From Myxococcales bacterium (GTDB lineage Bacteria > Myxococcota_A > Polyangia > Polyangiales > Polyangiaceae): a stretch of DNA of 64,000 bases. The position numbers were made by a program, and so were the translations under genes. Position 1 is the first letter of the stretch. Each line of letters opens with the position of its first letter. Positions 1-45,904 of the stretch are shown one piece after another. Location: contig CANJCO010000025.1 in NCBI GenBank assembly GCA_947473045.1, positions 1-64,000 of the forward strand. The letters run 5' to 3'. The notes beneath the pieces were generated by a model. The model was not told the origin of the DNA and searched no databases. It saw only the letters and a list, made by a program, of their open reading frames with translations.

Positions 1-105
1 GAAAAACACCCTGATAGTAATTGGCGAAGCCAATTGCGTGGGGTGGGGACCCCGAAAAACCGCGTTTTTCGGGGCGGGGAGGTGCATACCTCCCCGAGAT
101 GAAAG

Positions 106-137
106 GCTAGCAGGCCGTTCTTCAACGGCCTGCTAGC
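106..137. terminator. Perfect 14-bp stem with CTTC loop; possible terminator
   Basis: Bases 106-119 pair perfectly with 124-137 around the loop CTTC. There is no run of T on either side, so it is not a textbook intrinsic terminator. It could end transcription of a gene to the left of the window or act as an RNA-stabilising hairpin. A weaker version with one G-U pair is at 253-282 in the second repeat copy. Confidence 0.35.
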
Positions 138-163
138 AGGGCGCTCGAAAGACACCCTGCCAG
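132..163 (+). repeat. Left copy of a 32-bp direct repeat
   Basis: GCTAGCAGGGCGCT, six variable bases, then ACACCCTGCCAG. The same 14+6+12 arrangement, identical outside the six central bases, occurs at 3077-3108. The halves GCAGGG and CCCTGC form a small hairpin. This copy sits at the junction of the two 146-bp units. Confidence 0.75.
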
Positions 164-330
164 GAATTGGCGAAGCCAGTTGCGTGGGGTGGGGACCCCG
201 AAAGACCGCGTTTTTCGAGGCGGGGAGGTGCAGTCCTCCCCGAGATCAAAGGCTAGCAGGCCGCTGTTCATCGGCCTGTTAGACCCGAACGGGCGCGCGG
301 GCCGCGCCGAAGCCGTGTGGTGAGGCATTC

Positions 331-3081
331 ATGAAGATCGCGCATCTCCCGTTCGCAGCTGCACTCGTCGCCGCTGCCTGCTCGTCGACCCCAGCGCCGC
401 CGGCCACGACGCCCGACGAGCCCGATACTTCAGAGTTCAAGCGACCGCCGTACTCCTGCGCCTACATGTGTCCGAGCTCGGGATGCGCCGAAGTTGGGAC
501 TCCCTATTCGTGCCCGGCCATGGCTCCGTGGGCAGCGATGCCGCATGAAGCCGCGTGCGGAGACTGGGACGGCCGCTACCCGGCGGCTGCGCCCGGTCGC
601 TGCGTCGCCTCGGCGCCCGCCGGGGCTGCTGCCGCCTATGCGGGAACGGTAGGTGGCGTCACGATTCTGCCCGATGGGCGCACGCTCTCTCCGGCGGGCG
701 CCGACTGGGTGTTCGCCGAGAAGGACCTCGTGGGCGGCCTGACTTCCGCGTTGCAGCGCGTGCCCGGCACCCAGCTCGTGCTCGCGGTCGACACTGGCGA
801 GGGGGACCACGCCGTCAGACTCATCGACACTGCAAAGATCGGCAGCGGTGATCCCGTCGCGAGCTACGTGCGCTTCGCGAACCCGTCGACGCTCAACTCG
901 GCCGTCGCGTACGTGGCTCCCGATCTGGTCTATGTGGCGACCAACGACGGGGTGATTCAGGCGCTCAAGATCGACCTTGCGGCGGCCACCCTCGCGCGCG
1001 ATCCGGCACGCACGATCAAGCTCCCCGACGCCGTCAACGGCAACGGCGTCAAGGTGCCCTGGTATGTCGCAGGGCTCGCCGCGTCGCCCGACGGAAAGCG
1101 TCTCGTCGCGACGGGTGTGACCGAGCGTCGCCTGCTCGCCTTTGACGTCGACGCCCAGTCGCCCGGCTTCGGATCGCTGGTCGGCTCGGTCGAGCTGGGC
1201 GCCTCTGAGACGTTCTCGGTCAGCATGGATCCTGCCGATCTCGTAGGCAACCGCGCGTACGTCACCATGTGGGATCGCTCGAAGGTGGTCGAAGTCGATC
1301 TCACCGCTCCCGCCGCGCCCGTGCTCGCGCGCGAATTTCCCACGAAGAAGAACCCGCAGGGTGTCGCTTTTCTGGGGCCGAGGTGGATGGTAGCCGCGGG
1401 TGATTTGGGAGATGCGCTTACGCTGATCGATCGCGCGAGCGGGCAGACAACGGACGTGCGCGTTGACGCTACCCAACCGCTCTACGGACTCGAACCCGGA
1501 GCGCTGGCGTTCGACAGCGCGCGCAGTCGCCTGTACGCGGCGCTGGGAGGCATCAACGCGGTCTCGGTTTTTGACGTCGACTTGTCGAAGTCGCCGCCGG
1601 CGCTCGTGCCGCTGGGGCGGATGCCCACCGGCTTCTGGCCGTCGGCGCTCGCTGTGGAGGACGACGGCGCCCTCATTGTGACGAACTTGCGTGGCCGAGG
1701 CACGGGCACGCGGCCGGTCTACTGGCCGATCGAGGACTCCGACATCGCAGACCACATGCGCGGCTCAATCCAGCGCGTGCCCCTCCTGTCGGCCTCCGAG
1801 CTCGCCGCGGCCGACGCCGTGGTCGCGAAGTCGCTGTCAGTCGGCGCACGGGATGGCGCCCCGCAGGTGACGTGCCCCGACGGCGTCCGGGACTTCCCGC
1901 TGCCGGTGACCAATACCGAGGGCCCCTCGCCGGTGATCAAGCACGTGTTCGTCGTGCTTCGCGAAAACAAAGGGTTCGATGGCGTCTTTGGCGACATGCC
2001 GGGCGTCAACGGCGAGGCGACTTTCGCGCTCAAGCCGGGCTCGATGGACGCCATCTGGAAGAACTTGCGGCAGGCCGCGCGCACGTTCTCGATGAGCGAC
2101 AACTACTACACAGACGCCATCTACTCGACCCAGGGGCATGTGTGGGCAACCTATGGACGTACCAGCGACTTCAACGAGCGCACGTGGGCCATCTCCGGCA
2201 ACGGAAGGAGCGCGCGTCCCGTCCCGGGTGGGGGCGTCATCGACGTCGGGCAACCGGTAGAAGGCTCGCTCTTCGACTGGCTCGGCGACAACCACGTGGC
2301 CTACGATATTCGCGGTGAAATCGACGGTTCGCCGCGCAAGCCGCCCACCGATCACCCGCCGCTCGACGCGGCCTACCCGGGGGGCCCGTTTCAAAACATC
2401 GGCTACAACGACCTCGAAAAGGCCTGCTACCTCGCTGGGCAGTTGCGTGTATTTTGCAATCTTGGAACGGTGACGTACCTCACGCTCCCCAACGATCATA
2501 CGTTCGGCGTCTCGCCTCAGCGGCCAACGCCGGAGACGTACTGCGCGGTGAACGATGAGGCCACGGGCATGTTCCTCGACGCGCTCAGCCACAGCCCCGC
2601 CTGGGCCTCCTCGGTGGTGCTCATCACGGAGGACGATCCGTCGCAAGGAGGCGAACACGTTGACAGCCATCGGGCGCCGCTCACGTTGGTGTCGCCGTGG
2701 ATCCGTCGCGGCTACGTGTCGCACACCCACATCGACATCGCCTCAATTCACAAGCTGATCGCGCACCTCGTCGGCAAGCCCTACCCAAACGCGATCGTCG
2801 CGCAGGCCGCGCTGCCGTTCGATGCGTTCACCAGCACGCCCGATTTCGCCCCCTTCGTGTACGCGCGTCGCCAGTGGCCGCTGTCGTGCGGAGACGGGTC
2901 TGCGAAGGGCGAGCGGGACCTGTCGGACAGCTGGGACTTTTCCCGCGAGGACGCCCAGCCTGGCCTCGATCAGCAAGTCTCGCGGTGGATGCGCGGCGCG
3001 CCGGCGGCATCGCTTCCGCCGGCGCTTCGCGCGCGCGTCGACGCAAGAATCGAGGGTAACGCGCCTCGGGCAGCGCGCTAG
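331..3081 (+). CDS. Lipoprotein with beta-propeller and phosphoesterase domains
   Basis: The predicted 916-aa protein starts with a lipoprotein signal whose lipobox ends at Cys17 (VAAAC). A short Cys-rich stretch is followed by a repeat-rich region (about residues 110-500) resembling YncE/YVTN-type beta-propellers. The C-terminal part (about 530-880) looks like the phospholipase C/acid phosphatase-type phosphoesterase family. It opens with VFVVLRENKGFDGVFG, where Glu545-Asn546 matches the conserved metal-site start, and has later TEDD and DSHRAPL motifs. The likely role is hydrolysis of phosphate esters at the cell surface; the substrate is unknown. The RBS is weak (GTGAGG). Its TAG stop lies in a CTAG palindrome that is also the stop of the convergent gene. 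Confidence 0.8.
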   Translation: MKIAHLPFAAALVAAACSSTPAPPATTPDEPDTSEFKRPPYSCAYMCPSSGCAEVGTPYSCPAMAPWAAMPHEAACGDWDGRYPAAAPGRCVASAPAGAAAAYAGTVGGVTILPDGRTLSPAGADWVFAEKDLVGGLTSALQRVPGTQLVLAVDTGEGDHAVRLIDTAKIGSGDPVASYVRFANPSTLNSAVAYVAPDLVYVATNDGVIQALKIDLAAATLARDPARTIKLPDAVNGNGVKVPWYVAGLAASPDGKRLVATGVTERRLLAFDVDAQSPGFGSLVGSVELGASETFSVSMDPADLVGNRAYVTMWDRSKVVEVDLTAPAAPVLAREFPTKKNPQGVAFLGPRWMVAAGDLGDALTLIDRASGQTTDVRVDATQPLYGLEPGALAFDSARSRLYAALGGINAVSVFDVDLSKSPPALVPLGRMPTGFWPSALAVEDDGALIVTNLRGRGTGTRPVYWPIEDSDIADHMRGSIQRVPLLSASELAAADAVVAKSLSVGARDGAPQVTCPDGVRDFPLPVTNTEGPSPVIKHVFVVLRENKGFDGVFGDMPGVNGEATFALKPGSMDAIWKNLRQAARTFSMSDNYYTDAIYSTQGHVWATYGRTSDFNERTWAISGNGRSARPVPGGGVIDVGQPVEGSLFDWLGDNHVAYDIRGEIDGSPRKPPTDHPPLDAAYPGGPFQNIGYNDLEKACYLAGQLRVFCNLGTVTYLTLPNDHTFGVSPQRPTPETYCAVNDEATGMFLDALSHSPAWASSVVLITEDDPSQGGEHVDSHRAPLTLVSPWIRRGYVSHTHIDIASIHKLIAHLVGKPYPNAIVAQAALPFDAFTSTPDFAPFVYARRQWPLSCGDGSAKGERDLSDSWDFSREDAQPGLDQQVSRWMRGAPAASLPPALRARVDARIEGNAPRAAR

Positions 3082-45268: not shown

Positions 45269-45904
45269 TCACCGAATGACCGGAGCGCCTTGCGGTACGC
45301 GTACCGTCGCGGTCGGCGCCACGGGCGGAACCGGCTTCGCGGAGGGGCTGGCCGCCGCCGGAGCGAGCGCCTGTGAAGGCGCCGACGGAGCGGCTGTCGG
45401 GGCCGCTGCCGGCGTGATGGCGCCATTGGCTCGCGTCGTCGTCGGTGCGGGAGCGGCGGGCGCGGCGGGGGTCGCGGTCGCAGCGATGCGCGCGTTGGGC
45501 GAAGGAGCAGGCTGCGGGGTCGCGGTCGCAGCGATGGGCGCGTTGGGCGAAGGAGCAGGCTGGGGGGTCGCGGTCGCAGCGATGGGCGCGTTGGGCGAAG
45601 GAGCAGGCTGGGGGGTCGCGGTCGCAGCGATGGGCGCGTTGGGCGAGGGAGCGGTCTGCGGGGTCGCGGTCGCAGCGATGGGCGCGTTGGGCGAGGGAGC
45701 GGTCTGCGGGGTCGCAGGCGAGCCGCTCGCGGCCGGGGCGGGCATGGGCGCTGCCGACGGCGCCGGGGCGTTGCCCGCTCGGAAGCCGTCCGGCGGATTG
45801 TCCGCCGTGTGATCGACGCTGACGAGTCCGGTGCAAGAACACGCCGGCGCAAGGCCCGCGGCGAGCGTGAGCGAGATTAGCGCGATGACATTTTTTGTAT
45901 TCAT
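45269..45904 (-). CDS. Pro/Ala-rich repeat lipoprotein
   Basis: 211 aa from MNTKNVIALI with GGAG upstream. The lipobox is at Cys22 (LAPAC). After a short polar region come five near-perfect 16-residue repeats (PSPNAPIAATATPQPA), then more Pro/Ala/Thr-rich sequence. No folded domain is visible. It is probably an extended surface spacer, like proline-rich envelope-spanning lipoproteins. It lies just downstream of the porin-like gene and may share its transcript. Confidence 0.65.
   Translation of the reverse strand: MNTKNVIALISLTLAAGLAPACSCTGLVSVDHTADNPPDGFRAGNAPAPSAAPMPAPAASGSPATPQTAPSPNAPIAATATPQTAPSPNAPIAATATPQPAPSPNAPIAATATPQPAPSPNAPIAATATPQPAPSPNARIAATATPAAPAAPAPTTTRANGAITPAAAPTAAPSAPSQALAPAAASPSAKPVPPVAPTATVRVPQGAPVIR
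45474..45713. repeat. Five 48-bp tandem repeats inside a gene
   Basis: Units at 45474, 45522, 45570, 45618 and 45666 are 90% or more identical and keep the frame (16 codons). They encode the Pro/Ala repeats of the lipoprotein. A repeat this uniform is likely to vary in copy number between strains. Confidence 0.9.

Follow-up and report, generated by a model that had tools for sequence, protein, structure and literature searches.

A hairpin-cored repeat with palindromic ends in a Polyangiaceae genome is probably a MITE mobilised by an IS5-like transposase

Short, non-coding repeats in several copies, with inverted repeats that match IS5-family insertion sequences (ISs), have been described as the MITEs BrickBuilt, MITE239, MITE464 and MITE700 of Porphyromonas gingivalis, and the excerpt of that report on which we draw also mentions a MITE that has one end in common with another (PMC4596501). 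The repeat described here, from the genome of a Myxococcales bacterium of the family Polyangiaceae, is like them in length, lack of coding capacity, multiplicity and IS5-type inverted repeats. Compared with BrickBuilt as portrayed in the same excerpt, its ends are longer and palindromic, its flanks are YTAR whereas those of BrickBuilt vary in length and sequence, and its core consists of three conserved hairpins rather than a minisatellite (PMC4596501). YTAR is known as the target duplication of IS5, as stated in an extract of PMC10359306, and both the ends and the YTAR flanks of our element are like those of an IS5 insertion sequence (transpos_IS5_4) in the same genome and of its relatives; unlike these ISs, the unit carries no transposase gene and its core is, by eye, unrelated to the IS interior. 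The Correia (204 bp), ERIC and Chunjie (178–235 bp) MITEs are likewise short and, in the portion of PMC10969869 that treats them, occur in tens to hundreds of copies that are mostly intergenic and in some cases close to gene ends, as here. Palindromes, a short conserved foot, a position near gene 3′ ends and repeat-supplied TAG stops are shared with the REP, REPIN and BIME elements associated with RAYT (extracts of PMC3733652 and PMC2817692), whereas the genome studied here has no match to a Y1 transposase and the flanks in our full set of copies agree directly and not inverted. We give a probability of about 0.85 to the reading that the unit is a non-autonomous MITE mobilised in trans by an IS5-like transposase, and that the pair of units in which it was first seen combines a recent insertion with an older one next to it. 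The Correia, ERIC and Chunjie elements have ends and targets other than those of the present element.

The window analysed comprises 64,000 nucleotides from base 1 of contig C25 (CANJCO010000025.1) of the source genome, which we call G000 (5.15 Mb, 138 contigs; GCA_947473045.1); further G, C and L numbers denote other genomes, contigs and stretches of sequence. A two-unit repeat with a 146-bp period had been noted at 6–282, and TRF reported one array at 1–282 with period 146, 1.9 copies, 89% matches and no indels, in which the contig start cuts off the left end of copy 1 (Table 1). For unit 1 (1–146), the predicted fold is indeed a row of four hairpins (−84.6 kcal/mol and z −8.7 for RNA, z −8.6 for DNA), and the fold of 147–292 is weaker (−71.7, z −4.7). 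The two copies differ at 14 of 136 positions, and at least 135 bases of copy 1 are identical to many other copies in the genome. Because copy 1 is identical to many other copies over this length, copy 2 is diverged by about 10% and the two have a single CTAG in common, we infer two insertions of different age. Only one ORF of at least 60 aa (68 aa) overlaps 1–282, and the unit holds no transposase gene. The initial remark that no gene is nearby has to be corrected, as a 916-aa ORF begins at 331, 48 bp past the repeat. Elsewhere in the window, at 45468–45715, lies a 48-bp tandem repeat (5.2 copies, 97%) whose unit length is a multiple of three and which is perhaps coding.

Table 1. Coordinates of the element copies at the window start and of related features
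Feature	Position	Strand	Sequence or basis
Left terminal inverted repeat of copy 1, inner part	1..13	+	GAAAAACACCCTG, the 3′ part of CAGGGTGTTGAAAAACACCCTG, which is whole in interior copies; remainder lost at contig end
Core hairpin H1, copy 1	19..35	+	Fold; covariation across genera
Core hairpin H2, copy 1	50..74	+	Fold; covariation
Core hairpin H3, copy 1	76..95	+	Surrounding pattern: 126 exact genome matches, reversed control 0
Right terminal inverted repeat of copy 1, itself palindromic	111..132	+	Single-base difference from the deleted G011 IS at its right end
CTAG common to copies 1 and 2 (putative YTAR insertion target)	133..136	+	Sequence; flank statistics
Left terminal inverted repeat of copy 2, diverged	137..159	+	Sequence match
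Core hairpins H1–H3, copy 2	165..241 (165–181, 196–220, 222–241)	+	Fold
Right terminal inverted repeat of copy 2	257..278	+	Sequence coordinates
TTAG, YTAR 4-mer at right edge of copy 2	279..282	+	Sequence
Neighbour gene outside the element: 916-aa ORF, phosphoesterase domain (PF04185, 42.7 bits)	331..3081	+	ORF and profile match
IS701-family IS with 18-nt perfect ends, at CTAG beside an element copy	L170:143–1538 (G000:C54)		Profile and ends
Example left ends of the G022 sister element	L224:595, L228:608, L231:571	single orientation	In-frame TGA stops

A 27-mer pattern of the unit (up to three mismatches) was found at 112 places in G000, 64 forward and 48 reverse, against none for the reversed control. 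Of 100 listed places, contig starts account for 41, contig ends for 43 and contig interiors for 15, with one on a contig of unspecified length; 84 are thus no more than 200 bp from the end of a contig. Since most listed copies are at contig ends, the repeat is a main cause of the broken assembly, and as a MITE it accounts for many breaks in this 138-contig genome; because two contig ends can be one copy, we estimate the number of physical copies at roughly 60–80. The array touches the contig start, as would be expected of a local tandem repeat or an assembly artefact, a reading with practically no probability left and refuted by the 15 interior copies among the 100 listed, by flanks that differ from copy to copy in the interior copies read out, and by the presence of the core in other genera.

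The H3 pattern occurs in nine of the 183 genomes searched in the order; these all belong to the family of the source genome, with counts of 126 in G000, 43 in G022, four each in G005 and G053, two in G001 and one each in G002, G006, G054 and G087. A pattern scan of a contig database returned three stretches, all from Polyangiaceae MAGs; the strict pattern used (N before CCCC) is unable to match the type found in G022. With the 112 and 126 places in the source genome, the restriction to one family and named records that are all Polyangiaceae MAGs, the suggestion of an uncharacterised myxobacterial intergenic repeat holds for the Polyangiaceae. The original prediction had also named a lack of further copies and of covariation as arguments against itself, and both copies and covariation were found. 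No match above threshold came from plasmid and phage records or from viral contigs, the last searched with one strict pattern, and among the open-access literature matches listed no title or abstract opening names the repeat. A 99%-identical copy (L010; L151:1–119) lies on the edge of a contig of 4,965 bp (G006:C52, CANJMI010000052.1) of the Polyangiaceae MAG isolate RH-23may17-336, which may be a misbinned contig rather than a case of transfer.

Full interior copies consist of YTAR, CAGGGTGTTGAAAAACACCCTG, core, CAGGCCGTTCTTCAACGGCCTG and YTAR, which gives an element of about 145 bp with 22-bp terminal inverted repeats, each of them nearly palindromic (CAGGGTGTTGAAAAACACCCTG and, read on the opposite strand, CAGGCCGTTGAAGAACGGCCTG); in interior copies these repeats are present as CAGGGTGTTGAAAAAC and CAGGCCGTTGAAGAAC. 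The 4-mers on the left flank are CTAG (25), TTAG (13), CTAA (5), CTAT (4), TTAT (2), CTGG (2) and CTGT (1). Among the 33 copies with two flanks, 14 have equal 4-mers on both sides compared to 7.4 in shuffles (p 0.0019), with similar excesses when copies adjoining another copy are removed (8/21 vs 3.7, p 0.011), when only young copies are considered (6/11 vs 2.6, p 0.017) and in an earlier copy set (11/29 vs 6.7, p 0.022). Six of the 33 copies have a 4-mer on a contig edge, the least reliable part of the assembly; when these are excluded, 10 of 27 are equal (vs 6.3, p 0.033), and with neighboured copies removed as well, 4 of 15 (vs 2.3, p 0.16). A 4-bp direct duplication at the MITE copies is thus likely but not firm. 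The unequal flanks of the other 19 copies perhaps reflect insertion of copies side by side and decay of old ones; genome-wide, and by a simple rule, another copy directly adjoins 9/62 left flanks and 8/65 right flanks. Searches with the flanks of three of eight prepared copies in six genomes gave no clean empty site: the flanks of just one of the three (L044) map together to a single contig of G001 (C795:11102–12716; L260, L265), about 1.3 kb apart, so that more than the element distinguishes the two intervals.

Ends that are palindromic and carry a conserved tetranucleotide could also belong to a REPIN or BIME, in which a RAYT (Y1, IS200-like) mobilises a pair of palindromes in inverted orientation, both with a CTAG-like foot. 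Solo palindromes in G005, the weak excess of equal over inverted 4-mers in the strictest set, and REP termini that often lie on TAG stops, as reported in part of PMC3733652, would fit such an element. We nevertheless consider it very improbable, since agreement of the flanks as reverse complements shows no excess over shuffles (all copies, p 0.24; no-neighbour, p 0.52; young, p 0.47) where the full set has an excess of equal 4-mers, since Y1_Tnp (PF01797) is absent from the assembled G000, G001, G005 and G053 with one weak match in G022, and since G000 has a DDE IS with like ends. For G000 a REPIN or BIME is rejected because the assembly has no Y1_Tnp match; a GTAG (or CGTC) foot was not found either, the flanks being YTAR-like. 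The solo palindromes of G005, CTAGCAGGCTGCTGAAAAAGTTTTCAGCAGCCTGCTAG, are two ends without a core (L146:1500, L149:1500). In G039, G040, G046 and G095, stretches that start with TAGCAGGCTGYTGAAAAA have different interiors (L128–L130, L136, L138–L140, L144, L145), and in L136, L140 and L145 a matching right end follows within 220 bp, which leaves no space for a transposase gene.

DDE_Tnp_1 (PF01609) matched two genes in the G000 assembly, one IS5-type on contig C83 and one IS701-type on C54. The C83 transposase has 366 aa, scores 273 bits with NCBIfam transpos_IS5_4 (cut-off 140) and, used as a protein query, finds one place in G000. Its IS measures 1339 bp, starts with CAGGGTGTTGAAATTC after TTAG, ends on the other strand with CAGGACGTTGAGAAAC and has TTAG on both sides; its ends are like those of the MITE but without the palindromes. 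An ORF beside it (L162:2326–3378, G000:C83) may encode an AbiEii-type nucleotidyltransferase toxin. A search with the C83 transposase gave matches in nine of 108 genomes of the family. When 11 of the 12 matched transposase loci were inspected, like ends were seen on both sides in four (L178–L181), on one side in five and on neither in two; the 4-mers around the four two-ended ISs are TTAG/TTAG, CTAG/CTAG twice and CTAA/CTAG once (G019). Furthermore, G011 contains an internally deleted IS in which CTAG, CAGGGTGTTGCAGAACACCCTG, a transposase remnant, CAGGCCGTTCTGCAACGGCCTG and CTAG follow one another. Both ends of this deleted IS are palindromic and differ from the repeat ends by one or two bases each, and the remnant corresponds to transposase residues 311–360 (74% identity, E 5e-23). 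Comparison over 16 bases gave 13–15 matches between the left ends of MITE and IS and 13–14 between the right ends, compared to 13 and 11–14 crosswise, so that the sides are distinguished weakly.

The IS701-family IS on C54 adjoins a copy of the element, lies between CTAG sequences, matches IS701 at 385 bits and is the only other DDE_Tnp_1 match in G000. It is hardly credible as the parent, since it terminates in a perfect repeat of 18 nt, GCTAG followed by CACTACTTTGACA, unlike the MITE ends, and it was rejected on these grounds.

The copy number, the ends, the like-ended IS with TTAG flanks in G000 and the deleted IS in G011 all point to a MITE of an IS5-type transposase, and we infer that the C83 transposase moves it in trans. 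According to this model, a separate IS, that on C83, would make an IS5-family DDE transposase which recognises the palindromic 22-bp ends, inserts the element at YTAR and duplicates those 4 bp. In the window, copy 1 as the young copy would have inserted into a YTAR bordering the old copy 2, and selection on base pairing would keep the three-hairpin core. One IS place in the G000 assembly stands against dozens of MITEs; IS copies may have been lost, because contigs below 3 kb seem to be absent (the last, C138, has 3,024 bp). G005 holds MITE copies, yet gave no match to the C83 transposase at 1e-20. The Polyangiaceae thereby gain a well-defined MITE and a likely transposase, which makes its mobility testable.

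The hairpins themselves raise the question of whether the repeat is instead a structured RNA or a 3′-UTR element, such as a terminator or RNA stabiliser, whose hairpins are selected by the host and which is spread by unspecified means. Base pairing of the core was analysed in 41 of 57 sequences found, some of them trimmed; the 16 left out were five false matches, two contig-end cuts, three near-duplicates and six with broken or inserted hairpins, a choice that leans toward pairing, as does the use, in each sequence, of whichever of four offsets fits best. Across genera, the observed pairing was reached by none of 10,000 partner shuffles for H1 (38 sequences, 18 distinct arm pairs, for example GCCGGC/GCCGGC, AATTGGC/GCCAATT and GGCCTGC/GCAGGCC), by none for H2 (41 sequences, 20 distinct arm pairs) and by 115 for H3 (41 sequences, 12 distinct arm pairs), a test that kinship inflates. 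RNAalifold on a MAFFT alignment did not recover H1 and H2 (19 pairs, two two-sided changes, covariation term −1.34), and the arms look misaligned in this run. The original prediction had taken several differences in copy 2 that give G-U pairs rather than breaks as a sign of selection on the structure. Covariation between genera speaks for such selection, whereas the differences in copy 2 do not: seven of the 14 fall in pairs of copy 1, three of which become G-U and four are broken.

This covariation counts in favour of a host-selected RNA. Among the mismatches, 19 are G-T and 11 A-C, which singles out no one strand, so that this count leaves the choice between RNA and DNA undecided. A search of Rfam 15 with window 1–600 gave 14.5 bits as the best match against a gathering score of 45, and the first 700 bp contain one terminator-like site only, on the minus strand, compared to 0.5 in shuffles. 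Moreover, near-identical copies at unrelated places require a spreading mechanism regardless of any RNA function. Even with the placement data discussed below, we regard a host RNA as unlikely, and the proposal of a small structured RNA gives way before a sub-threshold Rfam match, strand-neutral mismatches and ends that, together with the matching IS, indicate a transposable element. Selection on base pairing maintains the core, and our guess is that the core most likely serves the element itself, either as foldable DNA or as a transcript that does no harm at the 3′ ends of genes. Rather than a novel RNA, the repeat appears to be a newly found member of a well-known class of genomic parasites.

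The core lies between IS5-type ends in G000, G005 and G065, and YTAR in G000 contains TAG or TAA. By a simple codon score, 24 of 88 YTAR flanks in G000 are the in-frame stop of a gene (left 11/40, right 13/48; 25/90 under the first codon table). A control confined to the window had 44 YTAR sites with two stops and was then enlarged to 364 kb, where 22 of 406 side tests are stops; outside called genes, stops were found in 18 of 72. Most of the stop bias is due to the target sequence and to gene avoidance, with an extra excess of about twofold (p 0.008). Neighbouring genes also converge on the element, with 51 flanking genes directed toward it and 22 away (37 of 110 flanks unassigned) compared to 92:104 at control YTAR sites (p 0.0009), a bias that counts in favour of the host-RNA reading.

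A further point in its favour is the sister element of G022, which sits on stop codons in a single orientation. It has the same core between other ends, TGAAGGKCTGTC...GACAGCTCTYGAG, as do G053 and G054 less regularly. Its left end has TGA in all 27 distinct hairpin-found copies (filtered from 43 places), and in 17 of these the TGA is a strict in-frame stop. A left-end pattern, which itself contains TGA and is thus no proof of it, found 49 left ends in one orientation, 32 of them strict and 44 relaxed stops; by the identical criterion, 23 strict and 55 relaxed stops occur among 1246 control TGA in a small background of 60 kb with 28 called genes. No TGA duplication is seen in G022, because the right end is YGAG with C for T in about 30%. 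GTAG REPs are known to provide genes with TAG stops, as described in an extract of PMC3733652. In G022, a single ORF (303 aa, L267:1174–2085) weakly resembles Y1_Tnp/RAYT (26.9 bits), with no element copy within about 1.5 kb.

We tentatively suggest that the core could be a mobile module with exchanged ends, belonging to a family of parasites that would survive on stop codons, where the protein stays intact and the hairpins may make a transcribed site tolerable; the mover in G022 might be the single Y1/RAYT-like enzyme. A core common to elements with different ends, together with the seating on stop codons, bears on how harmless sites come to be occupied by a short parasite, through targeting or through filtering. 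The element of the source genome is ordinary in kind and well supported, its hairpin core is unusual, and the stop-codon habit in G022 is the stranger lead. Eight of the 49 left ends in G022 stand without the core, and the 41 that have it comprise 27 strict and 38 relaxed stops.
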